Source: Luteibacter sp. UNC138MFCol5.1 (lineage in GTDB: Bacteria > Pseudomonadota > Gammaproteobacteria > Xanthomonadales > Rhodanobacteraceae). Taken from it: a stretch of DNA of 64,000 bases. A program made the position numbers and the translations under genes. Each line of letters begins with the position of its first letter. The first letter of the stretch is position 1. Below, one piece after another: positions 41,670-53,581 of this stretch. The notes beneath the pieces are model-generated. The model saw only the letters and a program-made list of their open reading frames with translations, did not search any database and was not told the origin of the DNA. The stretch lies in assembly GCF_900110505.1 (NCBI RefSeq), contig NZ_FODZ01000003.1, positions 621,975-685,974 on the forward strand, given 5' to 3'.

Positions 41670-41960
41670 TCAGAGATAGACGCGCAGCGACGCCGCCGCG
41701 GCCAGCAGGATCGCGCCGGCCCACCACGCCCACGAGGTCCATCGACGCTCGCGCGGGGGTACGACAGACCGCACCGGCAACACCGTCACCACCGCGCCGG
41801 CGGGGCGCCGCAACGTATGCGTCGCACCGCCCCGGCGCCGTGCGAGCGAGCGCAGCAGCATCCGTCGACGCAGCCGGTACTCCGGCGTGTCGATACGGCG
41901 ACCGCTGTGCGCCGCGTTGAGCGCGGCGAGTTCCCCGTCGACGCTGGCTTCCCAGTCCAT
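41670..41960 (-). CDS. Small tail-anchored protein at the end of the T6SS operon
   Basis: A 96-aa product, no recognised family. A charged, Arg-rich N-terminal part (M-D-W-E-A-S-V-D-G-E-L-A-A-L-N-A) is followed by one C-terminal helix (W-A-W-W-A-G-A-I-L-L-A-A-A-A-S-L). Its ATG overlaps the ppkA stop by one base, so it is translated with the kinase. It could be a membrane partner of PpkA; this is only context-based. Confidence 0.65.
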   Translation of the reverse strand: MDWEASVDGELAALNAAHSGRRIDTPEYRLRRRMLLRSLARRRGGATHTLRRPAGAVVTVLPVRSVVPPRERRWTSWAWWAGAILLAAAASLRVYL

Positions 41961-44866
41961 CAGCGAATCTCCCGGACGAGACGGAAACCGACATCGCGCT
42001 GCGCCGTGCCGTCGCTGTCGCGCACGGTGTCGACGGAACACGCGTCGCCCCCGCTGCGATAGCTGCCGCCGCGCATGACGACGCCACGGCCCTTCGTGGT
42101 CCACTCCCACACGCTGCCGGTGAGATCCACGAGCCCCCACGGGTTGGCGCTACCGTGGGCGCTGAAATCGGGCGCCTTCACCAGGCGGCCGAGGCCGGAC
42201 GAATCGGCGCCGCAGTTGCCGTCCTTGCTGTCCCAGTTGCCCTTCGCGTGGGCGGCGAGCAGCCATTCCTCGTCGGTCGGCAAGCGATACACGTGCCCGC
42301 TGACCTGCGTCAGCCAGGCGGCGTAGCGCTGCGCGAAGGCGACCGGAATCGACCGCGCCGGCTCCGTCGCCGCGACGCCGCGCGAGACCGCGCAGGTGCG
42401 CGTGGCGCGACAGAACTGGTCGAGGTTGGCGATCGTGATCTCCGTGCGCGTCATCGCAAAGGGCTTCGGCGAGCGCGGTATCACGACCATCGCCGGCCCG
42501 TACGCGCCGACCGCGAACGTGTCGAAGCATTCGCGCGCCGAACCCGCCAGGCCGCGGCGGCCACAGGGATCCGGAGGCGTCGTCGCGACCGGATGCATCT
42601 TGCCGATCACGGCGGACAGCGATCCCTCGGGCAGCAGCTTCGACGTGACCATCGCGGCTTCGAGGTCCTTGAGGCCCTGCGGGTCCGTGGTCTGCACGGC
42701 CGCCAAGCGCTTGCGCAGATCGTCCTGCGCGGCGGGAGCGACACCGGGCGCTTTCGCCGCGGTCATCACGGCGACCGCGAGGTCGTAGCGCGTCTGCGCG
42801 CGACGCAGGTCGTCCCGTTCGCCGATCACCGACAGCGCGTTGTCGATGCGCTCCGCGGCGTCTTTCCAGTGACCCGCTCGGCATGCCTCGCGAGCCGCGT
42901 CGAGATACGCGCCCGTGAGCAGGTTGGCGGCCTCGTCGTCGGTCTCGACGGCACCCCCGTCGATACGGCGAAGGTCCTGGAAGCTTTCTACGGCCTTGGG
43001 CAGGTCGCCCGCCGCCGCCGCGTGGCGCAGCGATTCGAGGCGTGCCTCGTGCTCGGCATGCTGCAGGTCCGGTGCCGCGGCCGTCGACGCCGCGGCGGGC
43101 GCGGCAGCCAGAGGGCCAGCCACCGACGCGGCTTTCGCGGGTGCCGTCGCATCGGCGAGCGCGATGGCTCGCGCCGCGAGCCGCGTGGATGACGGATACA
43201 CCCGGCGCGCGATCGCCAGGCGTTGTCCGGCGGTCTGCATGTCTCCGGCCGCCATGCTCTCGCCCACGGCCATGTCGAGCTTGAGCTCGAGTTCGGGGTT
43301 CGTCAGCAGGCGGCTCGCCGGGTCGATCCGGCGGATGCGCGCCAGGATCGCGGGCACGTCGTCGCTGGCATCGCCGAACAGGCGGCCGCCGAGGATCGCC
43401 TGGCTCAACGCCGTGTCGAGCCGGTTCAGCGCGTCGTCGCGTTCGTGCGTCACCTCCTCGCGCCGTCGATCCAGTTTCGGCGCGAAGCTCTTCAGGTCCG
43501 CGCGTAGCGCGAAGGTGCGCGTCGCGCCCGGGTAATCGAACTGGCCTTTCGCCGGATCCCAGTGCGTCGCCACGAGACGGACGAGGAAGCCGTCGATCGC
43601 GTCGGCGCCATCGACCACGACGCGCCGGCGCTCGTCGCCGTCGAGCGCCGCGAGCGCCGTGCGCAGGTCGTCCTCGTTGCGATAGCCATCGGGCTGGCCC
43701 GGCGCGAGGCGACGCAGCGTGTCGGCCACATGATGTCGCTCGGCCTGCGCGGACGCGAACCACGCGCCACCACCGGCGAGCGCGACGGCGACCGCGGCGG
43801 CGACGAGCCACGGCGTCGCGCGTTCGCGCCAGCGGCGCGGACGCAGCGCGGCGAGCAGCACGCCGATGTCGCTGCCCCGCCGGGCTCCGTCGAAGGCGAC
43901 GGCATCGCACAGCGCCTTGTACTGACGCTTGTCGAGTCCGGGCACGGCCGGTGGCCGGCGGCCGTGCGCGAGCGCTTCCTCCGCGCTCTCCTTGTCGAAC
44001 GGGTGGCGGCCCGTGAGCAGTTCGAACACGACGCAGCCGAACGCGTAGATGTCGTCGGCGGGCGACGGTGGCTTGCCCTGCAGCATCTCCAGGCTCGCAT
44101 AGGCCGGCGTCATCGCACCGAGCGTGCCGGCGTCGAACACGGTGCGGTCGTCGCCGCCTTCCGCGCCGATCTTGCCGGCGCGCGCGATCCCGAAATCGAA
44201 GACCTTGGCGACGCCCGCCGACGTCACCATGACGTTGCCCGGCTTGAAGTCCGAGTGCACGATGCCGGCGCCGTGCGCGCGACCCAGCGCTTCACCCATG
44301 CCCGCGATGAGCGGCCACGCCTCGGCGAACGGCATGCCGTCGCGCGCCTTGCCACGGATCAGCGCGCGAAGGTCGCTGCCTTCGACGTACTCCATCGTCA
44401 TGAAGACGTTGGTGCCGTCCTTGTCGAAATCGTAGACGCGCACGATGTGGTCGTTGGCGACCTGCTGCGCGCGCCGTGCTTCGCGCTGCAACGCGACCAG
44501 CGCGTCCGGGTGCTTGCGGAAGTCGTCGTTGAGCACCTTGACCGCCACGTACGGGTCGCGGTCGCGCGCCTCCACCTTGCGCTCGTCGCGCGCCAGGTAC
44601 ACCACGCCCATGCCGCCACGCCCGAGCTCGCGCTCCATGAAGAAGCGCCCCTTGAGCAGGCTGCCCACGCCGATGCGTTCGCCCTGCGCCATGTCGGCGA
44701 TGCGCCGCCATCCGCTTTCGCCCGTGCCTCGCGAGGCCGTGCCGGTCGCCGTGCCTTCCGCCGTCGCGCCGTGCAGCGGCTTGACGACCGTGGCATCGTC
44801 CTGGGCGCCCGCGGCGGAGCCGCGCAGCGGATCGACGCGGGTCGCGTCGTCGTCGTGTTCGTTCAT
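41960..44866 (-). CDS. ppkA: T6SS serine/threonine kinase PpkA with C-terminal FGE-sulfatase domain
   Basis: A 968-aa membrane kinase. The N-terminal tail has D-D-A-T motifs at Thr9 and Thr26. The kinase domain spans about 75-340: G-R-G-G-M-G at 82, catalytic Lys110, H-S-D-F-K-P-G-N (Asp206; Arg of HRD replaced by Ser), D-F-G at 224. A membrane helix lies at about 353-373, then a long periplasmic part and a C-terminal formylglycine-enzyme-like domain (about 780-968; R-L-P-T-D-E-E-W, G-S-V-W-E-W, M-R-G-G-S-Y). PpkA phosphorylates T6SS parts to activate secretion. The ATG at 44866 overlaps pppA by four bases. Confidence 0.92.
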   Translation of the reverse strand: MNEHDDDATRVDPLRGSAAGAQDDATVVKPLHGATAEGTATGTASRGTGESGWRRIADMAQGERIGVGSLLKGRFFMERELGRGGMGVVYLARDERKVEARDRDPYVAVKVLNDDFRKHPDALVALQREARRAQQVANDHIVRVYDFDKDGTNVFMTMEYVEGSDLRALIRGKARDGMPFAEAWPLIAGMGEALGRAHGAGIVHSDFKPGNVMVTSAGVAKVFDFGIARAGKIGAEGGDDRTVFDAGTLGAMTPAYASLEMLQGKPPSPADDIYAFGCVVFELLTGRHPFDKESAEEALAHGRRPPAVPGLDKRQYKALCDAVAFDGARRGSDIGVLLAALRPRRWRERATPWLVAAAVAVALAGGGAWFASAQAERHHVADTLRRLAPGQPDGYRNEDDLRTALAALDGDERRRVVVDGADAIDGFLVRLVATHWDPAKGQFDYPGATRTFALRADLKSFAPKLDRRREEVTHERDDALNRLDTALSQAILGGRLFGDASDDVPAILARIRRIDPASRLLTNPELELKLDMAVGESMAAGDMQTAGQRLAIARRVYPSSTRLAARAIALADATAPAKAASVAGPLAAAPAAASTAAAPDLQHAEHEARLESLRHAAAAGDLPKAVESFQDLRRIDGGAVETDDEAANLLTGAYLDAAREACRAGHWKDAAERIDNALSVIGERDDLRRAQTRYDLAVAVMTAAKAPGVAPAAQDDLRKRLAAVQTTDPQGLKDLEAAMVTSKLLPEGSLSAVIGKMHPVATTPPDPCGRRGLAGSARECFDTFAVGAYGPAMVVIPRSPKPFAMTRTEITIANLDQFCRATRTCAVSRGVAATEPARSIPVAFAQRYAAWLTQVSGHVYRLPTDEEWLLAAHAKGNWDSKDGNCGADSSGLGRLVKAPDFSAHGSANPWGLVDLTGSVWEWTTKGRGVVMRGGSYRSGGDACSVDTVRDSDGTAQRDVGFRLVREIR

Positions 44867-45588
44867 CGTGTTTCCTCGAAATCGTCGAGCCGTACCACCA
44901 CGGCGGACACGTTGTCGCGGCCCGCGCGTGCCAGCGCGCCGTCCATCAGTTCGCCCACCACCGCGTCCGGCCTCGCATGGCGCCGGCAACAGGCTTCGAT
45001 GTCCGCGTCGCCGAGTTCCTTGTTGATCCCGTCCGAGCACAGCACGAAGGACATCCCGCGACGCCTCGGCACGATCTTCCAGTCCACGTAGAGGCGGTCT
45101 TCCGCGCCGACCGCGCGGGTGAGCACGCCCGCCGCCGCGTGCGCCGGGTACGCGCCGAAGCGCGTCTCGTCGCCGCGATCGCCATGCACGTGATCGCGCG
45201 TGAGCAGGCGCAGGCGGTCGTTCTCGAAGCAGTACGCGCGGCTGTCGCCGACCCACCCGCAGAGCATCGCGTCGCGCGTGTGCACGAGGATCACCACAGT
45301 CGACGCGATCGCATCGACGTGCCGCTCGGCGGCCATCCTTCGTAGCGCGTGATTGACGCGAAGCAGCTCGTCCTCGATCGCGTCGATGCGGTCCGCGACG
45401 TCGTCCACCATCGGCAGCGCGCGCAGCCGATCGACGACGAGACGGCTGGCCACGTCGCCGGCCGCGTGGCCGCCCAGGCCGTCGGCCACCGCCCAGAGCC
45501 CCAGTTCGGGGGCATCGAGGATGGCGTCTTCGTTATGCCGGCGAACGTGACCGGTTTCGGTCCGGCCCGCCGATCGGAACAGGGTCAT
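44863..45588 (-). CDS. pppA: T6SS PP2C-family phosphatase PppA
   Basis: A 241-aa PP2C phosphatase that opposes PpkA. Metal-binding motifs: R-R-H-N-E-D-A, V-A-D-G-L-G-G-H, G-D-S-R-A-Y, C-S-D-G and R-D-N-V-S-A-V-V. The ATG at 45588 overlaps the tagF stop by four bases, and its stop overlaps ppkA by four bases. Confidence 0.93.
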   Translation of the reverse strand: MTLFRSAGRTETGHVRRHNEDAILDAPELGLWAVADGLGGHAAGDVASRLVVDRLRALPMVDDVADRIDAIEDELLRVNHALRRMAAERHVDAIASTVVILVHTRDAMLCGWVGDSRAYCFENDRLRLLTRDHVHGDRGDETRFGAYPAHAAAGVLTRAVGAEDRLYVDWKIVPRRRGMSFVLCSDGINKELGDADIEACCRRHARPDAVVGELMDGALARAGRDNVSAVVVRLDDFEETR

Positions 45589-46142
45589 GCGATGCTTTCC
45601 TCGTTGAAATCGGGCATCCCGCGCGTGAACACGCCGGCTTCCGGATCGTCGCCCCGCCACCCGAGAGCCCGCGCGGCATCGGGTGGTGGCGTGTTCCACG
45701 CTCGCGACGTCGCGGAAGGCTCGGGCAGCGACGACACCGCGATATCGAACGCCTCGGGCCCGACATCGCCGACGGCGTCGCGCAGCGCGTCCTCGGCCAT
45801 GCGGAACCACATGCCACCGGGCAGCGGTGGCCAACCATCGGCGGCGGACGGCTGGGACGCGGCGATCACCAGCGGATAGACGCGACCGGCGCGATCGCGC
45901 GACGGTGCGACGACGCCGACCCACGCGCGCGGACCACAGACATGGGATGCGAGCGCGAAACGCGTGGCGGGTATCGCGAGAAAGCGCTCGCGCCAATCGT
46001 CGCCATCGCGATCCGCCATCGCCGCGAGGCGCATCTGCCAATACCGGTCCCATGGCTCGACGAAGTCGCCCGGCACGCGGCGCTGGACGAAGTCGCCGAC
46101 GCCAGGCAACTTGCCATGGAAGCCCGCCATCGGCCGCGTCAT
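45585..46142 (-). CDS. tagF: T6SS-associated protein TagF
   Basis: A 185-aa TagF/ImpM protein: G-F-H-G-K-L-P-G-V-G-D-F-V and E-P-W-D-R-Y-W are family hallmarks. TagF represses T6SS assembly post-translationally, in some species by binding the FHA protein; in Agrobacterium it is fused to PppA, and here the two are separate but overlap by four bases. The ATG at 46142 is favoured because it overlaps the tssM stop (ATGA); a second ATG lies four codons later. Confidence 0.92.
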   Translation of the reverse strand: MTRPMAGFHGKLPGVGDFVQRRVPGDFVEPWDRYWQMRLAAMADRDGDDWRERFLAIPATRFALASHVCGPRAWVGVVAPSRDRAGRVYPLVIAASQPSAADGWPPLPGGMWFRMAEDALRDAVGDVGPEAFDIAVSSLPEPSATSRAWNTPPPDAARALGWRGDDPEAGVFTRGMPDFNEESIA

Positions 46143-49100
46143 GCCGGGCACCGGAAACGGTGCACGCTGCCATCGCCGAAGGGATTGCGCAGGCTCGCCG
46201 CTTCGATGTCGACATTGGCACGCGCCGAGCCGAAACCGAACGTCGCACCGAAGCGTGTCTCCGTGCGCCGTTGCAGCGACGCCGCGTCGAGCGCATGGAA
46301 CAGGCCCCACTCGCCCGGATAGCTCAGCGTCGGAAGCGGCTCGCCAGACGTATCCCATGCGCTGACGCGCGTCGCGCCCGGCTTCGGTCCCGGCCACTGC
46401 ATCGCCAAGGGCTGCGCAGGCTCGCCGGCCTTGTATTCGAACGTCTGGCCGTCGATGTCGACGGTCAGGCGCCCGATGCCTTCGGGCGGCGTGGTGATCG
46501 ACACGGTGAAGCCGACCTGCGGCTGCGGGCCGTCGCGGAAATACGTCTGGCGGATCGCGTCGGCGACCTGCGCCTGCGCCAGCACGCCCGCCGCGCCGTT
46601 GGCGGACGTCGCGTCCCGGAAGCGCCAGGCCGTTCCGCTCGTATTGACGACGCGTGACAACGACTGGCGGAAGAACGCGTCGAAGCGTCCACCGTTGCCG
46701 AACAGTGCCGCGAAATCCTGCACCGGAATATCGTCGCGGCTGCCCGCGACGAAGGGATAGCGGCCCTTTACGAATCGGTCGCAGTCGGCGCCCGCCGCCT
46801 GGCGGAAGCCGTCGGCGAGCGCACCGCTCGCGCCCTTCCCCACCAGCGCCTCGCTGTTGCCGGCGAGTCCGCCCAGCCACGACGACAGGGGTGGCGGCAG
46901 TTGCGCGGCCTCCTGGCGAGCGGTCGCCAGAGCGGGGTCCGTCTGGCCGATGCTGTCCGCACCGGGGCGCACCGTGAGCAGCGTCTTGCTGAGCTGCTCG
47001 AGCGTCGCCATCGTCCGGTCCAGCGGCGTCGCTCCCGCGCCGCCGTCCGTGAGGCGGTTGATCGCCGCGAAATGCTCGACGATGGGCGCATCCGCCGGCG
47101 CCGCCGACCGAATGTTCGCGGGGCGCGCGCCTTCGGCGATCACGCGCGCGATCTCGTTCCGGCTGCCGACGCGCTGCGTCGCGCGCGCCTTCGCCGCATC
47201 GGCGATCCGGTCCGCGGGATCGGTCGAAGGTGCTGGCGCGCGCAACAGATCGGTCGTGTTGTCGCGCACCAGAAGGAGCAGCGCCTTGAGTGGCGAGCCT
47301 GGGCCGGCGAGGCGCGAGGCGACTCCGCTGGCTTCCTGCACGGTCGCCACCGGCTGAATCTCGAGACCGCCGATCAGACCATCCCACGCCCGGATGTAAT
47401 CGTCGACATAGAGGCCGCGCACCTGCATCGCGAGCGACGCACGGCGCAACGGATCGGCCGCGGTGGCGCCGAAGACCCAGTCGTCCTTCACGAAGCGGTC
47501 GACGGCTTGCGCGATGCGTCCGGGCGGCGTCTCGCTGACCATGCTGGCGAACACCGGGCGCGTGTAGAGCGCGGGCAACGGTTTCGCCAGGGAGGTACCG
47601 TCGCGACGGCGGAACACCTCGCCCAGCAATCCGAGCGTGCGGTCGAGACGCACGGGTGCGTCGCCGCTGGCCGCCTCGTCGATCTTCAGTCCTCCATAGA
47701 TCAGCGTCGCCAGGTCGGCCGCCCGCAGGGTCGCGCGCGCCGACTCCACGAGCCCGCCGTCGACCGGCAGCGCGCGCAGCGTATCCTGCCCCTCGAAGAG
47801 GACGCGGAAGTGGTCTTCAAGCGCCTGCACCAGGGTGTCTTCGTCCGGGAACACCTCGCGCCAGCGTTCGCCGGCGAACAGCACCAGTTGCGCATCGTCC
47901 CGGTGCGCGGGCTCGCCGAGCATGAGGTATCCCTTGAGGATGGTGTACAGGCGCTGCGGATCGTCCGCCGCGTCCCTCAGCCCGTCGCGGAACTGCAGCG
48001 CCAGACCGGGCAGCACGCTCGCCTGGAATTCGCGCGCGCGTGCCGCACGCGTTTCGGCGAACACCGCGTCGCCCTGGTACAGGCCGAAGCGCATCGACCA
48101 CGGGGTATCGCCGCGCACCTCGTTCGCCACCTGTTCCGCGCGTGCGAGCACGTCGAGACGTTGCAGCGCCTGCGCGTAGTACGGTCGCAACGAAGCCGTC
48201 GCCGCGGGTGCCGCGTCGGGGTAATCGCGCAACGCCTCCGCGACGCGTGCGACGTAGTCGGCGTTGCGACCGTAGCTGACCGCCATGCCGACCAGCAGCG
48301 CGGCCGTCGCCGTGCCGATGCCCGCGATCGCGGCCGCCTCGGCGATGCGGCGACGACGCAGCGCCTGCGGATCCGATCCCACGAAGCCCGCTTCCGGCAG
48401 GATCGTCTCCTTCATCAGCCGGGAAACGAAGTACGCGCGTCGCTGCGCCCGCGTGGACGGGGTCGCGGCGGCATGCATGCCGAACGAGCGCCCGACCACC
48501 GAGAGCACGCGGTCGATCGGCGTGCCCTCCTGCGTGCCCGAGGTCATGTAGACGCCCCGCAGCAGCGGCGAGCGACCGTAGGCGTGGCGGCCGAACACGG
48601 TCGCTACCAGCGGCAGCGCGAGCTCGCGGAGTCCACGCACCTGCTGCGGAAAGGCGAGCACCTGCGCGCGGCGGCGCACGTCGCGTTCGGCATGCATGCG
48701 TCCGAGCACGCGCTCGTCGAGACGCGCCAGCAACGCGTCGAACTCGTCGCCGAGGCGTGCGGGCGCGCTGCCGTCGAGGCTCTGCTCCGCCGTGAACGTC
48801 GCACCCCAGACCTGCTCCCGTGCGGCGGCGTCGAGCCCGTCGAAGAACGCGAGGAACCCATCGACGAGGTCGCACTTGGTGAACACGAGGTACACCGGCA
48901 CCGCGATGCCCAGGCGGGTGCCGATGTCGTCGAGGCGCTCGCGCAGCACCGTCGCATGCCGCTGCCGCCCGGCCTCGTCCATCGTCAGCAGTTCCGACGC
49001 GCTCACGGTGAGCACGATGCCGTTGACGGGCCGACGACGGCGGTGGCGACGCAGCAGCTGCAGGAATCCATCCCATGCCGAGGCGTCCGCCCGCGGGTCG

Positions 49101-49672
49101 GAATCCTGCGTCGTGTAGCGGCCCGCGGTGTCGAGGAATACGGCGGTATCCGTGAACCACCAGTCGCAGTGACGTGTGCCACCGATGCCGGCTACCGAGC
49201 GCTTACCGGTGCCGCCCTGGATCGGAAACTCGAGACCCGAATGCTCGAGCAGGGTGCTCTTGCCCGAGCCGGGAGCGCCGATGAGCAGGTACCACGGCAG
49301 GTCTTCGAGATGGCCGCCGCCAGTGCGACGCTTGCGCAGGAGGGCCAGCGCTTCCGCGAAACGCGCTCGGAGCACCTCGTGCTCGGCGCGCGCGCGAAGG
49401 TCCGAGTCGGCGCGCGCGGCGTCGGACCCGGCGAGTTCGGCACCCATCCGTTCGTCGCGGCGGGCGGCGAGGCGTCGACGGAACAGCAGCGCGCCGATCC
49501 AGACGACAGCGACGACGACGATCGCCACGACGCGCGCGGCGACGCTCGCCAGCGGCTGCGTGTCGCCGATGCCCAGGTACGGGCCACCGAAACCGATCAG
49601 CAGTGCGCAACACAGGATGCCGATCGCGGCATGGAACCACGGATGGCGAAGCAGCTCGGTCGCGGACTTCAT
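46139..49672 (-). CDS. tssM: Type VI secretion membrane subunit TssM (IcmF)
   Basis: A 1177-aa inner membrane protein of the T6SS trans-envelope complex. Two N-terminal helices (about 14-31, 46-65) and a third near 425-445 flank a cytoplasmic GTPase-like domain with Walker A G-A-P-G-S-G-K-S-T (132-140) and D-T-A-G-R-Y. The large periplasmic region ends with a TssM C-terminal domain (F-R-D-G-P-Q-P-Q-V-G-F-T-V). It normally contacts TssJ and TssL. Length is typical. Confidence 0.96.
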   Translation of the reverse strand: MKSATELLRHPWFHAAIGILCCALLIGFGGPYLGIGDTQPLASVAARVVAIVVVAVVWIGALLFRRRLAARRDERMGAELAGSDAARADSDLRARAEHEVLRARFAEALALLRKRRTGGGHLEDLPWYLLIGAPGSGKSTLLEHSGLEFPIQGGTGKRSVAGIGGTRHCDWWFTDTAVFLDTAGRYTTQDSDPRADASAWDGFLQLLRRHRRRRPVNGIVLTVSASELLTMDEAGRQRHATVLRERLDDIGTRLGIAVPVYLVFTKCDLVDGFLAFFDGLDAAAREQVWGATFTAEQSLDGSAPARLGDEFDALLARLDERVLGRMHAERDVRRRAQVLAFPQQVRGLRELALPLVATVFGRHAYGRSPLLRGVYMTSGTQEGTPIDRVLSVVGRSFGMHAAATPSTRAQRRAYFVSRLMKETILPEAGFVGSDPQALRRRRIAEAAAIAGIGTATAALLVGMAVSYGRNADYVARVAEALRDYPDAAPAATASLRPYYAQALQRLDVLARAEQVANEVRGDTPWSMRFGLYQGDAVFAETRAARAREFQASVLPGLALQFRDGLRDAADDPQRLYTILKGYLMLGEPAHRDDAQLVLFAGERWREVFPDEDTLVQALEDHFRVLFEGQDTLRALPVDGGLVESARATLRAADLATLIYGGLKIDEAASGDAPVRLDRTLGLLGEVFRRRDGTSLAKPLPALYTRPVFASMVSETPPGRIAQAVDRFVKDDWVFGATAADPLRRASLAMQVRGLYVDDYIRAWDGLIGGLEIQPVATVQEASGVASRLAGPGSPLKALLLLVRDNTTDLLRAPAPSTDPADRIADAAKARATQRVGSRNEIARVIAEGARPANIRSAAPADAPIVEHFAAINRLTDGGAGATPLDRTMATLEQLSKTLLTVRPGADSIGQTDPALATARQEAAQLPPPLSSWLGGLAGNSEALVGKGASGALADGFRQAAGADCDRFVKGRYPFVAGSRDDIPVQDFAALFGNGGRFDAFFRQSLSRVVNTSGTAWRFRDATSANGAAGVLAQAQVADAIRQTYFRDGPQPQVGFTVSITTPPEGIGRLTVDIDGQTFEYKAGEPAQPLAMQWPGPKPGATRVSAWDTSGEPLPTLSYPGEWGLFHALDAASLQRRTETRFGATFGFGSARANVDIEAASLRNPFGDGSVHRFRCPA

Positions 49673-50958
49673 CCGGCCTCCGGAACGAAAAGAATGTCGA
49701 CGCGGCGGTTACGCGCGCGATTGGCGGGCACGTCGGCCGGCGTGGCCACCGGCTGGGACGCGCCGGCGCCGCTGGTTTCGATGCGCCGCGGGTCGGTGAG
49801 GTCGCGGGCGAGCACCGCGCCGACGTTGCGGGCACGCGCGGCCGAAAGTTCCATGTTGTCCTTGAAGCGCAGCGATCGGATTGGCTGGTCGTCGGTGTGG
49901 CCGACGACCACGACGCGCCCGCGCACCTGGTTCAGCGCCCGCGCGATGCGCGAGAGCAACGCGGCACGGTCGGCGGCGACATCGGCGCCGCCCGACGGGA
50001 ACATCTCCGTGCCGGCCAGGCGCAGGACGGCCTGGCCATCGGGTTTCTCGTCGATGCCGAGCGCCCCGCTCCGCTCGTCCTCGGCGAGCAGCGCGCGCAG
50101 GCTCGCCGGTTGCCTCTTCGCCGGTGCCGCGTTCGCGGGAAGCGGCACGCCCTGCAGGCCGATCGCCGCGAGACGCGCGCCCACCGGTTCGGCCACACCG
50201 TTGAGGCGGCCGTGCAGGACGATCCATACGACGACGAGCAGGCACGCGGCCCCGAGTGCCGCCATCCACACCGGCAGGCCGCGACGGACGCGCAGCGGGC
50301 GGTCCAGACCGCGCCACCGCGGCGACAGCTCGGTCGCCACGCCGGAACGGTACGCCGTGATGCGCCGATAGACGTCCTCGCGGCGGTCGGCCAGCCGTGC
50401 CACACCGCCGGGCTCGACGAGGTAGCGCCCGCCGAAGCCGAGCGCGAGGCAGAGGTACATCAGTTCCACGAGGTCGGCGTGGCGCACCATGTCCTGCGTC
50501 AGGCGGTCCAGCAGGACGAAGAACTTCTCGCCGCCGTAGGCCTCGCCATGGAACGTGACCAGGAGCGTCTGCCGCTGCCAGCCGGTGCGCTCGCCCCAGG
50601 GCGACTCGAGCACCGCCTCGTCGAGCATCGTGCACAGCACATAGCGCGCGGTCACGCTCGTCTGCCCGTCCACGCCCGCGCGCGCCAGCGTATCGTCGAA
50701 CCGACGGATGCCGGCGATCGCGCGCTCGCGCAGCACCGTCGGATCGGGCGCGTCGCCGCTGTGGCGAAGCTGCGCGGCGAGCAGCAGGAGCGGATTCGCG
50801 GCGCGCAGGATCGGACTCCCCGCCGCCGACGGAAGCATCTGCGTCACGGCGTCGATCGACGCTGGCGCGGGACGCGCGGCCACGGGTTCCGGCGCCGACG
50901 CGCTCGGCCGCACGATCGTGGCGTCGTCGTTCACGCCCGGACGGTCGTCGCGCCTCAT
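49669..50958 (-). CDS. tssL: TssL (DotU) with OmpA-like peptidoglycan-binding domain
   Basis: A 429-aa evolved TssL. The N-terminal tail carries D-D-A-T-I-V-R-P with Thr14. The DotU cytoplasmic domain (about 55-220) includes M-L-D-E-A-V-L, E-K-F-F and L-C-L-A-L-G-F-G-G. One membrane helix (228-250) leads to a C-terminal OmpA domain (about 325-425; V-V-V-G-H-T-D-D-Q-P and S-A-A-R-A-R-N-V). The OmpA part would anchor the complex to peptidoglycan, which some systems need TagL for. The ATG at 50958 overlaps the tssK stop by four bases. Confidence 0.95.
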   Translation of the reverse strand: MRRDDRPGVNDDATIVRPSASAPEPVAARPAPASIDAVTQMLPSAAGSPILRAANPLLLLAAQLRHSGDAPDPTVLRERAIAGIRRFDDTLARAGVDGQTSVTARYVLCTMLDEAVLESPWGERTGWQRQTLLVTFHGEAYGGEKFFVLLDRLTQDMVRHADLVELMYLCLALGFGGRYLVEPGGVARLADRREDVYRRITAYRSGVATELSPRWRGLDRPLRVRRGLPVWMAALGAACLLVVVWIVLHGRLNGVAEPVGARLAAIGLQGVPLPANAAPAKRQPASLRALLAEDERSGALGIDEKPDGQAVLRLAGTEMFPSGGADVAADRAALLSRIARALNQVRGRVVVVGHTDDQPIRSLRFKDNMELSAARARNVGAVLARDLTDPRRIETSGAGASQPVATPADVPANRARNRRVDILFVPEAG

Positions 50959-52301
50959 GACGACGCCCTCACCGCCCACAGTTCGAGATCAAGCCCGTCG
51001 AACCCGTTACCGAAATGCAGCGCGACGCCACCCGACGTGCGCAACGTCTTCCACATGGGCGAGGCCTTATCCAGTTCGAAGTACTGGTAGCCGCTCCGGT
51101 AAGGAATCTGGCGCGGGGCGCTGGGCAACGACGCCACCGCGATACCCGGCAGCTGAAGGTTGACCAGGTCGCGGATCTTCTCCACCGGCCCGATCTTCGA
51201 TTGCGTGGGCAGGCGGCGGCGCATCTCGGCGGCCGCGATGTCCGCCTTGGCCGCGAGCACGAAACTGGCGCCGTCGAGCAGGCTCGCATCCGCCAGCGTT
51301 CCCACCCATACGCCGAACTTGCGCTGTTGCAGCGGCACGGGAATGGCCGTCTGCTCCAGCACCGCGCTCAGGCTCGTGCGCAGGGCGGCGATCACGGGCT
51401 CGAACGATTCGCGCAGGCGGTCGTGACGGTACGGCGGAAACGCCTCGCTCCGCTTGCCGGGCGCGGTGAACGTCGCCAGTTCACCCGCCATGCCAAGCAG
51501 GAGGCGATAGAGGTCCTCCGGATGCAGCAGCGGCGCCTCGGCGAGATGCGCCAGCTGCGGCTGGCTGCGATTGACGATCTGCAGCATAAGGAAGTCGGCG
51601 AGCTCGGCCGTGCTCGTGCGATCCGTGCCGGCCACGCGCGCGGCGAGCGCCTCGCCGCGCTGGTGCAGGAGTCCCAGCAATTCCGTGATGAAGAGGGACA
51701 GCGGGTTCGCCGCGCGGCACGACAACGCCGTCGGGATGAACCCATCGTCGAGCACGACGCGACGATCCGCGCGGCACTCCACGAGGTGCGCCATGGGCAG
51801 CTCGACCAGACCCTCCCGCGCCTGCGAACCGACCAGCAGGCGTGCGTCCAGCCCGCCGACCTCGAGTACGACGGTACCCGTGGTGCTCCCGGACGCGTCG
51901 CCGACCTCCGCCTCGCGCACGCGGAAGCGCGACAGCTGACCGGACGGCGACGCGTCGGGCCAGCGGCTCTCGGGCTGCGTCGCTTCTCGCAACGGCAGCG
52001 TCAGGTACACCGGCTGGTCGCGCCAGTTCGCGTCGATATCGAGCGGTGGCGGCAGCGGGTCGCGATCCGGCATGGAGAACGGCGTGCCGTCGGGAAACAC
52101 GCCGCGCGCGCGGCGGATGCCCAGCTTGCCGATCGCGAGGAGGTCGCGCTCGATCTCCAGCTCGTCGAACCCCCAGGGATGCGGGCGCAGCGTCGCGGCG
52201 CGAAGCTCGATGTAGCGCTCCGTGTAGCGGTCCTGCTGCTGCATGTGCTGCGGGCGAAGGAACAGGCCCTCGCTCCACACCACCTTGTTGAATGCGGTCA
52301 T
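50955..52301 (-). CDS. tssK: Type VI baseplate subunit TssK
   Basis: TssK (448 aa) connects the baseplate to the TssLM membrane complex. The start V-V-W-S-E-G-L-F-L-R-P-Q-H-M-Q-Q-Q-D-R is diagnostic. A-L-S-C-R-A-A-N-P-L-S-L and the C-terminal Q-Y-F-E-L are also family features. The ATG at 52301 overlaps the FHA gene stop by four bases. Confidence 0.96.
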   Translation of the reverse strand: MTAFNKVVWSEGLFLRPQHMQQQDRYTERYIELRAATLRPHPWGFDELEIERDLLAIGKLGIRRARGVFPDGTPFSMPDRDPLPPPLDIDANWRDQPVYLTLPLREATQPESRWPDASPSGQLSRFRVREAEVGDASGSTTGTVVLEVGGLDARLLVGSQAREGLVELPMAHLVECRADRRVVLDDGFIPTALSCRAANPLSLFITELLGLLHQRGEALAARVAGTDRTSTAELADFLMLQIVNRSQPQLAHLAEAPLLHPEDLYRLLLGMAGELATFTAPGKRSEAFPPYRHDRLRESFEPVIAALRTSLSAVLEQTAIPVPLQQRKFGVWVGTLADASLLDGASFVLAAKADIAAAEMRRRLPTQSKIGPVEKIRDLVNLQLPGIAVASLPSAPRQIPYRSGYQYFELDKASPMWKTLRTSGGVALHFGNGFDGLDLELWAVRASS

Positions 52302-53581
52302 CGCGTGGCTCCGTCGCGCTTGAAGCGCGCCAGCTGGTCTTCGTAGGCACGGGCGAACTCGTCGCCGAAGAGGCGACGGAACCGCTCCTCGGGGTCGGCG
52401 GCGAGTCCCTCGTGGAATGCCCGGTATCGCTCCCAGGGGCCTTTCGCCGCGCCGAACGCGAAGCGGGAGCGACGCGCGCCACCCTCTTCGAAGCGGGCCG
52501 GGTCGATCTGGGCGATCAGGTCGTCGAACGCCGCGCGCACTCCCGCGAGCAGCGCGACCTGGTGCAACCGGATATCGTCCATCGCGTCGGCGACGGCGGC
52601 GTCGCCGGAAAGAAACGCGTCGTTCGGTGCCGCCAGCAGTCGATCCAGCGCTTCCGTCGCGGTAGGCGCGAACTTCAGTGGGTTGTTCTCCGAACGGCGG
52701 ATCAGCGTCGCCGGCATGCGGAAACCGTTCTTCAGTTCGGCACGCGCGCGCAGGACGTCCATCACACCGTCGAGCATGCGCAGGAAAAGCGGTTCGAGCC
52801 CGGCACGTGCCGGCGCCGGAGCCTCGCGTTCCAGCGAGGGCGCCGGTGCGGCTGGCGGCACCGATGCGACGGAAGCCGGCTCGCTCGCCGCCGGCGCGGG
52901 CACGGCGGACGTGTCCGGCATCACGAACACGCTGCGCGTGCTGTCCCAGTGCTCGGGCAATACCGCCCCTGCCGAGGGCGTTGCGGCGGTGTCGACGCGC
53001 GGCGGTGCGAGGTGATCTTCCATCGGCGACGCGTGGGCCCACGACGGTGCGTCGCCGGACGTCGCGCGTGGCTCGCCGGTCACGGGCAGCATCGTCTGGA
53101 ACCACGCGAGCGGATCGACCGATCCGCCTGGCCCGGCCTCCCCGATCAGCGCGTCGACCGGCGAGCGCAGGGGCGACGCGACCGGCGGCGCCGGTCGCAC
53201 CGTCCGCGCGGTGTCGGCCGATGCCCGGCGTGCCGTCGTGTGCGCGATGTCGACGGGGGATTCGACCGTGGCCAGCACTTCGAACGTATCGATCTGGATC
53301 ACGTCGCCGTCGCGCAACACCGCGGGTTCGCCGCGCAGCGCCTCGCCGTTGAGGAGCATGCCGTTGGTGCTGCGGTCCTCGAGGAAATACATGCCGTTGA
53401 GGAAGCGCACGATCGCGTGCTGACGCGACACGCCCTGGGCGTGCAGCACCCAGTCGCACTGGTCGGCGCGGCCGATGGTCAGCGCCTCGCCTTCCACGCG
53501 GACCGACGTGCGCTCCGCGATGTCGTCGACATGCGTGCCGAGCACGGAAAGGACCAGGCTCGGTCCGTTGAAACGATTCAT
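52298..53581 (-). CDS. tagH: T6SS FHA-domain protein (TagH/Fha type)
   Basis: A 427-aa soluble protein with an N-terminal FHA domain (about 20-100; T-I-G-R-A-D, V-S-R-Q-H-A, D-R-S-T-N-G-M-L-L-N-G), a Pro/Ala-rich linker (about 110-265) and a C-terminal TagH-like region (about 270-427; S-E-N-N-P-L-K-F). It reads phosphothreonine written by PpkA. ATG at 53581 overlaps the DUF6931-like gene stop by four bases. Confidence 0.93.
   Translation of the reverse strand: MNRFNGPSLVLSVLGTHVDDIAERTSVRVEGEALTIGRADQCDWVLHAQGVSRQHAIVRFLNGMYFLEDRSTNGMLLNGEALRGEPAVLRDGDVIQIDTFEVLATVESPVDIAHTTARRASADTARTVRPAPPVASPLRSPVDALIGEAGPGGSVDPLAWFQTMLPVTGEPRATSGDAPSWAHASPMEDHLAPPRVDTAATPSAGAVLPEHWDSTRSVFVMPDTSAVPAPAASEPASVASVPPAAPAPSLEREAPAPARAGLEPLFLRMLDGVMDVLRARAELKNGFRMPATLIRRSENNPLKFAPTATEALDRLLAAPNDAFLSGDAAVADAMDDIRLHQVALLAGVRAAFDDLIAQIDPARFEEGGARRSRFAFGAAKGPWERYRAFHEGLAADPEERFRRLFGDEFARAYEDQLARFKRDGATR

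Follow-up and report, generated by a model that had tools for sequence, protein, structure and literature searches.

A threonine motif shared by the kinase PpkA and the membrane protein TssL of type VI secretion loci is a candidate docking site for the FHA domain of Fha

Which phosphothreonines does the FHA protein of a type VI secretion system (T6SS) read, and do the kinase and the membrane complex present it with the same site? This question is raised by a T6SS locus in a 64,000-nucleotide stretch of Luteibacter sp. UNC138MFCol5.1 (contig NZ_FODZ01000003.1, positions 621,975 to 685,974), hereafter the window, whose numbering is used below. Translation of the window revealed that the kinase PpkA (ppkA, 41960–44866, minus strand, 968 residues) contains DDATRVDP with Thr9 (44828–44851; Thr codon 44840–44842) and DDATVVKP with Thr26 (44777–44800; Thr codon 44789–44791), and that TssL (tssL, 49669–50958, 429 residues) contains DDATIVRP with Thr14 (50905–50928; Thr codon 50917–50919), all on the minus strand. 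These are the three copies that the initial annotation had listed; it regarded them as docking sites for Fha, the FHA protein of the locus (fha/tagH, 52298–53581, minus strand, 427 residues), which would be handed from the kinase to the membrane complex. In a survey of 207 loci, the reading of a shared FHA docking motif is well supported: the motif is present in both proteins, is conserved across genera and tends to occur where the FHA pocket is intact. An obligatory hand-off is disfavoured.

Six-frame translation places DDAT at one other site in the window (42077–42088, plus strand), antisense to ppkA. The DNA pattern GAYGAYGCNACNNNNGTNNNNCC, which corresponds to DDATxVxP, has four matches in the genome itself, three of which are the sites above, and one match for the reversed control; across 41 genomes it has 18 matches versus 12 for the control. 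Nine of the 18 sit on tssL or ppkA of T6SS clusters like this one, and the match L038 is the PpkA of genome G015. The off-target matches fall in frames of 62 codons (L033) and 144 codons (L034), within longer frames that are neither TssL nor PpkA (L036, L039, L041 and L042), in an 82-codon frame inside the T6SS region of genome G006 (L040), and at a place with no frame containing the peptide (L037). A further match, outside any T6SS match (L035; G017:C8:54173-54195), reads DDATAVKP near the start of a 530-codon frame and is followed by a hydrophobic segment; it is perhaps the N-terminal tail of an unrelated membrane protein.

Among close relatives, the same-genus genomes G012, G006 and G016 have the same T6SS tails as named Luteibacter records. 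In an alignment of PpkA with 11 chosen relatives (46–84% identity; three of 14 PpkAs, L189, L193 and L199, were omitted for their short tails), the tail is variable, yet all 12 rows have Thr26 and Pro30, and Thr9 is at least 90% conserved. Both Thr26 and Pro30 are also invariant in all 15 rows of a wider alignment with 14 chosen relatives (down to 46% identity; six of 20 omitted, namely L186, L190, L196, L205, L213 and L214), in which Thr9 is not among the conserved positions. This invariance holds for the chosen rows only, because the omitted rows include non-strict motifs: four of the six PpkAs lack a strict one (DDGLTVVQP in L186, DMATVVNP in L190, DDATVVKL in L213 and DVATVVKV in L214). 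The TssL motif around Thr14 is present in most, not all, of the aligned relatives.

The survey consisted of the window, 133 stretches of at most 20 kb around PpkA, TssL or FHA matches (13 from relatives, 100 hand-chosen for spread among the matches listed, and 20 further ones) and a second sample of 80 named loci, the best 80 of 561 matches, which is biased towards close relatives. Seven duplicates (L184, L185, L200, L210, L214, L228 and L259) were removed from the pooled counts and remain within the second-sample counts. TssL, kinase, FHA, FHA C-domain and PppA were marked with profile hidden Markov models grown from the window proteins. TssL tails were read stop to stop, up to 100 residues upstream, and thus include untranslated codons; the tail is missing in four of the 207 loci. 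The strict motif was defined as [DE]-x-T-[VIRLKQYTM]-[VILF]-x-P. A looser form was slightly widened after the first results, which changed the TssL counts from 59/74, 10/25 and 1/31 to 60/74, 12/26 and 1/30 (kinase in the stretch; FHA gene only; neither), and this widened form was used for the off-target, pocket and tree analyses.

In the first sample, the strict motif occurs in the TssL tail of 36 of the 74 loci whose stretch includes a kinase, 7 of the 26 that have an FHA gene only and 1 of the 30 that have neither. An absent gene may simply lie outside the stretch (a T6SS FHA protein was found elsewhere in four of the four genomes checked). The corresponding second-sample counts are 36/53, 13/16 and 3/9, with duplicates included and two loci outside the classes; some of the loci with neither gene are short contigs, and the contrast is weaker there. 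When each 60%-identity cluster is represented by a single member, kinase-bearing clusters have the looser motif in 23 of 30 cases, FHA-only clusters in 10 of 19 and bare clusters in 1 of 14, and the comparison of kinase-bearing with bare clusters gives p values of 0.029, 0.0028, 1.7e-5 and 3.6e-7 at 40, 50, 60 and 70% identity, respectively. De novo motif finding in TssL tails from stretches with a kinase or phosphatase (104 non-redundant of 138) yielded D-[RA]-T-[VI]-[VI]-[RK]-P. D-D-A-T as such is therefore too narrow a definition, as the position preceding Thr accepts different residues (A, R, K, G, S and others): the site that the initial annotation recognized is shared and conserved, and DDAT is just one form of D-x-T.

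A separate de novo run on PpkA linkers (104 non-redundant of 122) gave D-D-D-[AR]-T-[VR]-[VFI]-x-P, so that both runs yield the same motif, D-x-T-[VI/R]-[VIF]-x-P, which an estimated 79% of the sequences bear in each set. The matrix derived from TssL scores at least 5 in 70 of the 122 PpkA linkers, compared with 2.6 expected from shuffles, and in none of the linkers of 36 control kinases from relatives, which were taken from 2–4 kb stretches devoid of TssL and the T6SS-FHA C-domain and are unmatched in linker length. Of the 75 PpkAs of the first sample, 23 have the strict motif in the N-terminal tail, 7 in the linker after the kinase domain and none in the kinase domain itself; in the second sample it was found in 32 of 53 PpkAs. 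When the samples are pooled, between one and four strict copies occur in 58 of 122 PpkAs. Lack of conservation, which had been named beforehand as one outcome that would speak against the docking proposal, was not seen: the motif recurs in PpkA and TssL across genera. Per 100,000 residues of coding-like frames, motif hits number 122 in kinases, 89 in TssL, 13 in FHA proteins and 3.8 in other frames.

The position of the motif within PpkA shifts. It lies in the N-terminal tail in Luteibacter, Rhodanobacter and Xanthomonas, and directly after the kinase domain in L068, L069, L073 and L075, which we take to be Pseudomonas. In three of these (L068, L069 and L073), TssL reads DRTQFMP and the segment following the PpkA kinase domain DATVVRP or EATLVRP, and Pseudomonas may therefore share the TssL/PpkA motif, P. 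aeruginosa itself not being among these loci. Ten named Variovorax-type loci with a kinase in their stretch have the TssL sequence ERTVIKP; five of them carry DRTRVVP in the PpkA tail and one DRTVILP after the kinase domain. Four strict copies are found in the PpkA tails of L193, L202 and L235 (two Rhodanobacter records and one proteobacterial metagenome-assembled genome). The PpkAs of L059, L060, L205 and L211, which belong to some Stenotrophomonas, Xanthomonas and one Luteibacter-genus locus, have an apparent extra N-terminal stretch before the motif copies (about 72 residues in L059) that looks helical by eye. We also looked for matched variable residues between the PpkA and TssL copies of one genome and found none by eye (for example, DRTQFMP in TssL and DATVVRP in PpkA of L068); because the copies differ in this way, residue-level co-variation is not claimed.

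Chance or low-complexity likeness would be the simplest explanation, given a high-GC genome and tails rich in Ala, Asp and Pro. Shuffled TssL tails, however, contain 0.27, 0.10 and 0.08 strict hits in the three first-sample classes (kinase, FHA only, neither), the first against 36 observed, and shuffled PpkA N-terminal tails contain 0.28 against 23 observed. Together with the 0 of 36 control kinases, these shuffles led us to reject this explanation, which we regard as having practically no chance of being right.

If Fha reads the motif, its FHA domain should retain a phosphothreonine pocket. The domain (residues 35–97; 53291–53479, minus strand) contains R38, S52 and N73 by Pfam match and alignment, and its nearest Protein Data Bank (PDB) neighbours in a structure comparison are FHA domains, some of them with phosphopeptides. 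In the 140 FHA-bearing loci with a TssL tail, which are related to one another, the three residues are complete in 105 of 110 loci with a TssL (looser) or PpkA (strict) motif versus 6 of 30 without (Fisher p = 8.5e-17). With a kinase in the stretch, the pocket is complete in 83 of 84 motif-bearing loci and 4 of 14 others; without a kinase, the values are 22 of 26 and 2 of 16. Both PpkA and TssL copies are present in 39 of the 140 loci, all with a complete pocket. Pocket-broken, motif-less loci that have no kinase or phosphatase in the stretch mostly have both R38 and S52 replaced, most commonly with Ser at position 38. V. cholerae TagH also has S38 at this place, and the species is reported to lack ppkA and pppA (PMC8993066). 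In G363 and G426, which belong to one genus, the motif-bearing T6SS has an Fha with the R, the S and the GSN stretch, whereas the Fha of a second, motif-less T6SS lacks that Asn; the first Fha lies 30–39 kb from its tssL and was assigned by nearness. On a tree of TssL, TssK and TssM (203 rows), with loci that have no FHA gene in the stretch counted as pocket-less, full-pocket FHA and the TssL motif change in the same direction in 5.8 pairs and in the opposite direction in 0.1 (median p 0.031, range 0.008–0.375). An earlier tree of the TssL domain only (130 rows) pointed in the same direction with too few supported pairs. The tree-corrected support for the association is modest.

A different view would be that the motif in the TssL tail has a structural or trafficking role apart from phosphorylation and that the PpkA copies have a separate origin. 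TssL copies do often run on with R/T/M-P-G, and the two positions after the motif Pro are enriched in the TssL matrix. Against this view, Thr is the most conserved position in both de novo motifs (97% and 95%), the motif accompanies the FHA pocket, and Fha binds Agrobacterium TssL phosphorylated at Thr14, which lies in a related sequence (PMC3953482). We consider such a role improbable.

We think it likely that PpkA phosphorylates D-x-T-[VI/R]-[VIF]-x-P sites and that the FHA domain of Fha reads them. Within the T6SS threonine-phosphorylation pathway, the motif would thus serve both to accept phosphate and to dock Fha. The threonines that PpkA would phosphorylate are T9 and T26 in its own flexible cytosolic tail, T14 in that of TssL and, at a related site, T292 in the C-domain of Fha; the FHA domain would read the phosphorylated copies, so that Fha would be held both at the kinase and at the TssL–TssM membrane complex. 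Assembly would begin where phospho-sites concentrate, and PppA would reset them. TagF binds Fha (PMC5995506), and this binding would counteract assembly. A weak affinity of the single site combined with several copies would fit avidity at clusters.

Several observations weigh against this reading. Strict copies are missing from 64 of the 122 PpkAs, and the TssL motif occurs in 3 of the 9 second-sample stretches that contain no kinase and no FHA gene. The third pocket residue is altered in five of the motif-bearing loci, and the pocket is complete in six loci that lack the motif; four of the latter remain when L212, whose motif lies beyond the 100-residue limit, and L217, with a tail of only two residues, are set aside. 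The support becomes smaller after phylogenetic correction: the subset of 140 FHA-bearing loci provides two to three informative pairs and no significance, as independent pocket changes are too few, and kinase presence and the TssL motif over all branches give 6.2 pairs in the same and 2.5 in the opposite direction (p about 0.18). The +3 residue, the classical selector of FHA domains, is variable in the motif, mostly in PpkA. Finally, the affinity measured in Agrobacterium is weak (Kd 0.54–1.58 mM; PMC3953482).

The motif could also be a substrate consensus of PpkA only, with the FHA domain reading a single site in TssL or another protein and the PpkA copies arising from regulatory or by-standing autophosphorylation. 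Bacterial kinases do autophosphorylate their linkers, and kinase consensus alone could make sites alike, as the likely phosphosite in Fha itself illustrates. Thr292 (codon 52706–52708, minus strand), within PATLIRRSENNPLKF, is a degenerate version of the motif, and the model places it in a loop (residues 289–297) predicted with low confidence. Of 95 loci that combine a kinase or phosphatase with the motif and the pocket, 86 have Thr at this position and 7 a gap; the position is invariant in a 19-row Fha alignment of chosen rows, from which five of 23 were omitted (L204, L205, L210, L213 and L214). Thr292 lies 135 residues from the C-terminus, and Fha1 of P. aeruginosa, which we take to be 497 residues long, would have T362 at the same distance; by this distance, rather than an alignment with Fha1, Thr292 is probably the equivalent of T362. 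Because T292 is conserved and lies at that distance, T-[hydrophobic]-[VI] is probably common to the sites in TssL and PpkA and to the Fha phosphosite already known.

Three points argue against consensus alone. PpkA linkers vary from zero to four strict copies, with four in L193, L202 and L235. Kinase-dead mutation of PpkA in Acidovorax weakens PpkA–Fha binding (PMC12607579). Seven FHA-bearing loci without a TssL motif (L060 and L211 of Stenotrophomonas; L204–L206, L208 and L209 of Xanthomonas) keep the PpkA motif and the full pocket in 7 of 7 cases, although the five Xanthomonas loci also have DRTQVAP in the Fha linker. We thus consider the consensus-only explanation unlikely. As a separate observation, D-[RL]-T-Q-V-x-P occurs in the Fha interdomain linker of six Xanthomonas loci (L203–L206, L208 and L209); L203 (Xanthomonas bonasiae) has the linker copy together with PpkA copies and the TssL copy DATVMRP and appears intermediate-like. 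When both FHA parts are on one frame, 5 of the 34 loci that lack the TssL motif and 1 of the 102 that have it contain the linker copy, and the shift represents one or two events because all six loci are from one genus. A PpkA or Fha copy can accompany an intact reader without a TssL copy.

The hand-off in its explicit form states that Fha docks on autophosphorylated PpkA, receives the phosphate on T292 and passes to pThr14-TssL, the shared motif making the two sites compete. PpkA and TssL each have a copy in the window and in the 39 pocket-complete loci; the PpkA and TssL tails should lie on the same cytosolic side because of the domain order; and GarA/OdhI with PknB provides a precedent for an FHA protein that docks on its own kinase. 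An obligatory hand-off is nevertheless disfavoured because either partner can be motif-less. Besides the seven PpkA-only loci, 64 FHA-bearing loci have a TssL motif without a strict PpkA copy; 38 of these have a kinase in the stretch, of which 17 have a looser PpkA copy, and this leaves at least 21 TssL-only loci, the clear cases with neither a strict nor a looser copy in PpkA. Agrobacterium TssL, moreover, remains phosphorylated without functional Fha (PMC3953482). The shared motif of the initial annotation holds up, its role as a docking site is likely, and the transfer as a compulsory step is disfavoured; in any form, the hand-off appears doubtful.

Taken further, the shared docking motif would be one phospho-code for the whole T6SS switch, in which multivalent PpkA (up to four copies), TssL (one or two) and Fha copies make a phosphorylation-gated Fha scaffold or condensate, and copies move between partners during evolution while the FHA reader stays. 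We regard this as a real possibility that falls somewhat short of an even chance. If true, the code would extend the TssL switch far beyond Rhizobiales. The motif itself is more general than the window alone could show, and the switch was already known from Agrobacterium. In the literature found, as far as available, the ligand of a T6SS Fha FHA domain is known only for Agrobacterium TssL, at a site reported there as unconserved elsewhere; a motif common to TssL and PpkA names exact threonines to mutate in many species and may allow T6SSs that use this switch to be predicted from sequence alone.

The seven genes fha, tssK, tssL, tssM, tagF, pppA and ppkA lie on the minus strand and are likely to form a single operon, as the initial annotation assumed, because each neighbouring pair overlaps by 4 nt; fha stands in the operon of tssL and is separated from it by tssK, so that it is not strictly adjacent. 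Between ppkA and tssL are pppA, a PP2C-type phosphatase gene (44863–45588; PP2C_2, E value 4.5e-15), tagF (45585–46142; Pfam and family profile matches) and tssM (46139–49672; relatives in 192 surveyed stretches); tssK is at 50955–52301, with relatives in 187. We take the last two names from the gene order, and for tssM also from the operon of the initial annotation, rather than from a family search. TssL is of the long form, with a DotU domain and a C-terminal OmpA domain. Fha consists of the FHA domain, a linker of low model confidence and a T6SS_FHA_C domain (TIGR03354, E value 2.5e-85). A second FHA domain is encoded elsewhere in the genome, outside the T6SS operon (C11:488658-488849, in a 286-residue frame).

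PpkA is a membrane Ser/Thr kinase (Pkinase E value 7.8e-35, catalytic HSDFKPGN and DFG) with an N-terminal tail of low model confidence, a kinase domain at about residues 71–330, one transmembrane helix by hydropathy (about 352–372) and a C-terminal FGE-sulfatase-like domain. For the tail, disorder is suggested rather than shown, because the models of PpkA and Fha both have low overall confidence (pTM 0.32) and parts of the PpkA kinase N-lobe likewise score below pLDDT 50. The catalytic loop (residues 204–211; 44234–44257, minus strand) is that of a non-RD kinase; the residue before the catalytic Asp is non-Arg in 73 of 122 T6SS kinases (Arg in 47, gap in 2), and HRD is found in 36 of 36 control kinases. 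The formylglycine-generating-enzyme-like domain (residues 801–965, Pfam) is presumably periplasmic, because it follows the transmembrane helix, and might be a signal sensor. A 96-residue open reading frame with a hydrophobic C-terminal segment and no Pfam match begins at the ppkA stop (41670–41960, minus strand); it has tblastn matches in 13 loci and directly follows ppkA in L051 and L053.

The closest known system is that of Agrobacterium tumefaciens, in which TssL is phosphorylated at Thr14 in a PpkA-dependent manner and Fha binds pThr14-TssL (Lin et al. 2014, PMC3953482), as the initial annotation had correctly stated. Both systems have PpkA, an FHA protein and an N-terminal cytosolic Thr14 of TssL with an acidic residue nearby and two aliphatic residues after it; the FHA reading of pThr-TssL is established in Agrobacterium, whereas Luteibacter is known from its sequence. 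The Agrobacterium site is DLPpTVVEI (Kd 1.58 mM; 0.54 mM for a 20-mer) rather than DDAT, has neither the D-x-T spacing nor the +4 Pro, and its Fha lacks a T362-type Thr. The Thr14 region is reported there as unconserved outside Agrobacterium and Rhizobium, yet TssL is suggested as a wider target (PMC3953482). The available parts of that account describe no PpkA copy, whereas D-x-T-[VI]-[VI]-x-P occurs here in many TssLs and in PpkA.

With the pathways of P. aeruginosa (PpkA to Fha1 Thr362) and Serratia (Fha Thr438), the locus shares PpkA, PppA, Fha and TagF, and its Fha has T292 as a candidate C-domain phospho-acceptor; TssL is not named as a substrate in the portions available of these reports (PMC6082577, PMC5995506, PMC2699552). 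TssL as a substrate outside Rhizobiales is represented by Vibrio alginolyticus PpkA2 (cited in PMC10482370 and PMC5995506), for which another review names VstR as substrate (PMC6567927). In Acidovorax citrulli, Fha foci require active PpkA and not Fha-T640, kinase-dead PpkA binds Fha less, and PpkA condensates of a TssW–PpkA–Fha axis recruit TssL and Fha; the sections available name no docking motif (PMC12607579). The shared motif would offer an explanation for foci that require active PpkA and not Fha phosphorylation. Titles and abstract openings listed in searches of open-licence literature contained no paper describing a motif shared by PpkA and TssL.

Beyond T6SSs, the nearest parallel is GarA/OdhI, whose targets are metabolic enzymes and which has an N-terminal ETT-type phosphosite adjoining its FHA domain. 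Such a site was not found in Luteibacter Fha, where the first modelled strand comprises residues 8–14 with no tail before it and the candidate T292 lies in the C-domain. The complex with PknB shows that an FHA domain is able to bind the kinase that phosphorylates its own protein (PDB 6i2p, from its title). Luteibacter Fha differs from GarA/OdhI in its long linker, its T6SS-specific C-domain and a probable second ligand on the membrane complex.

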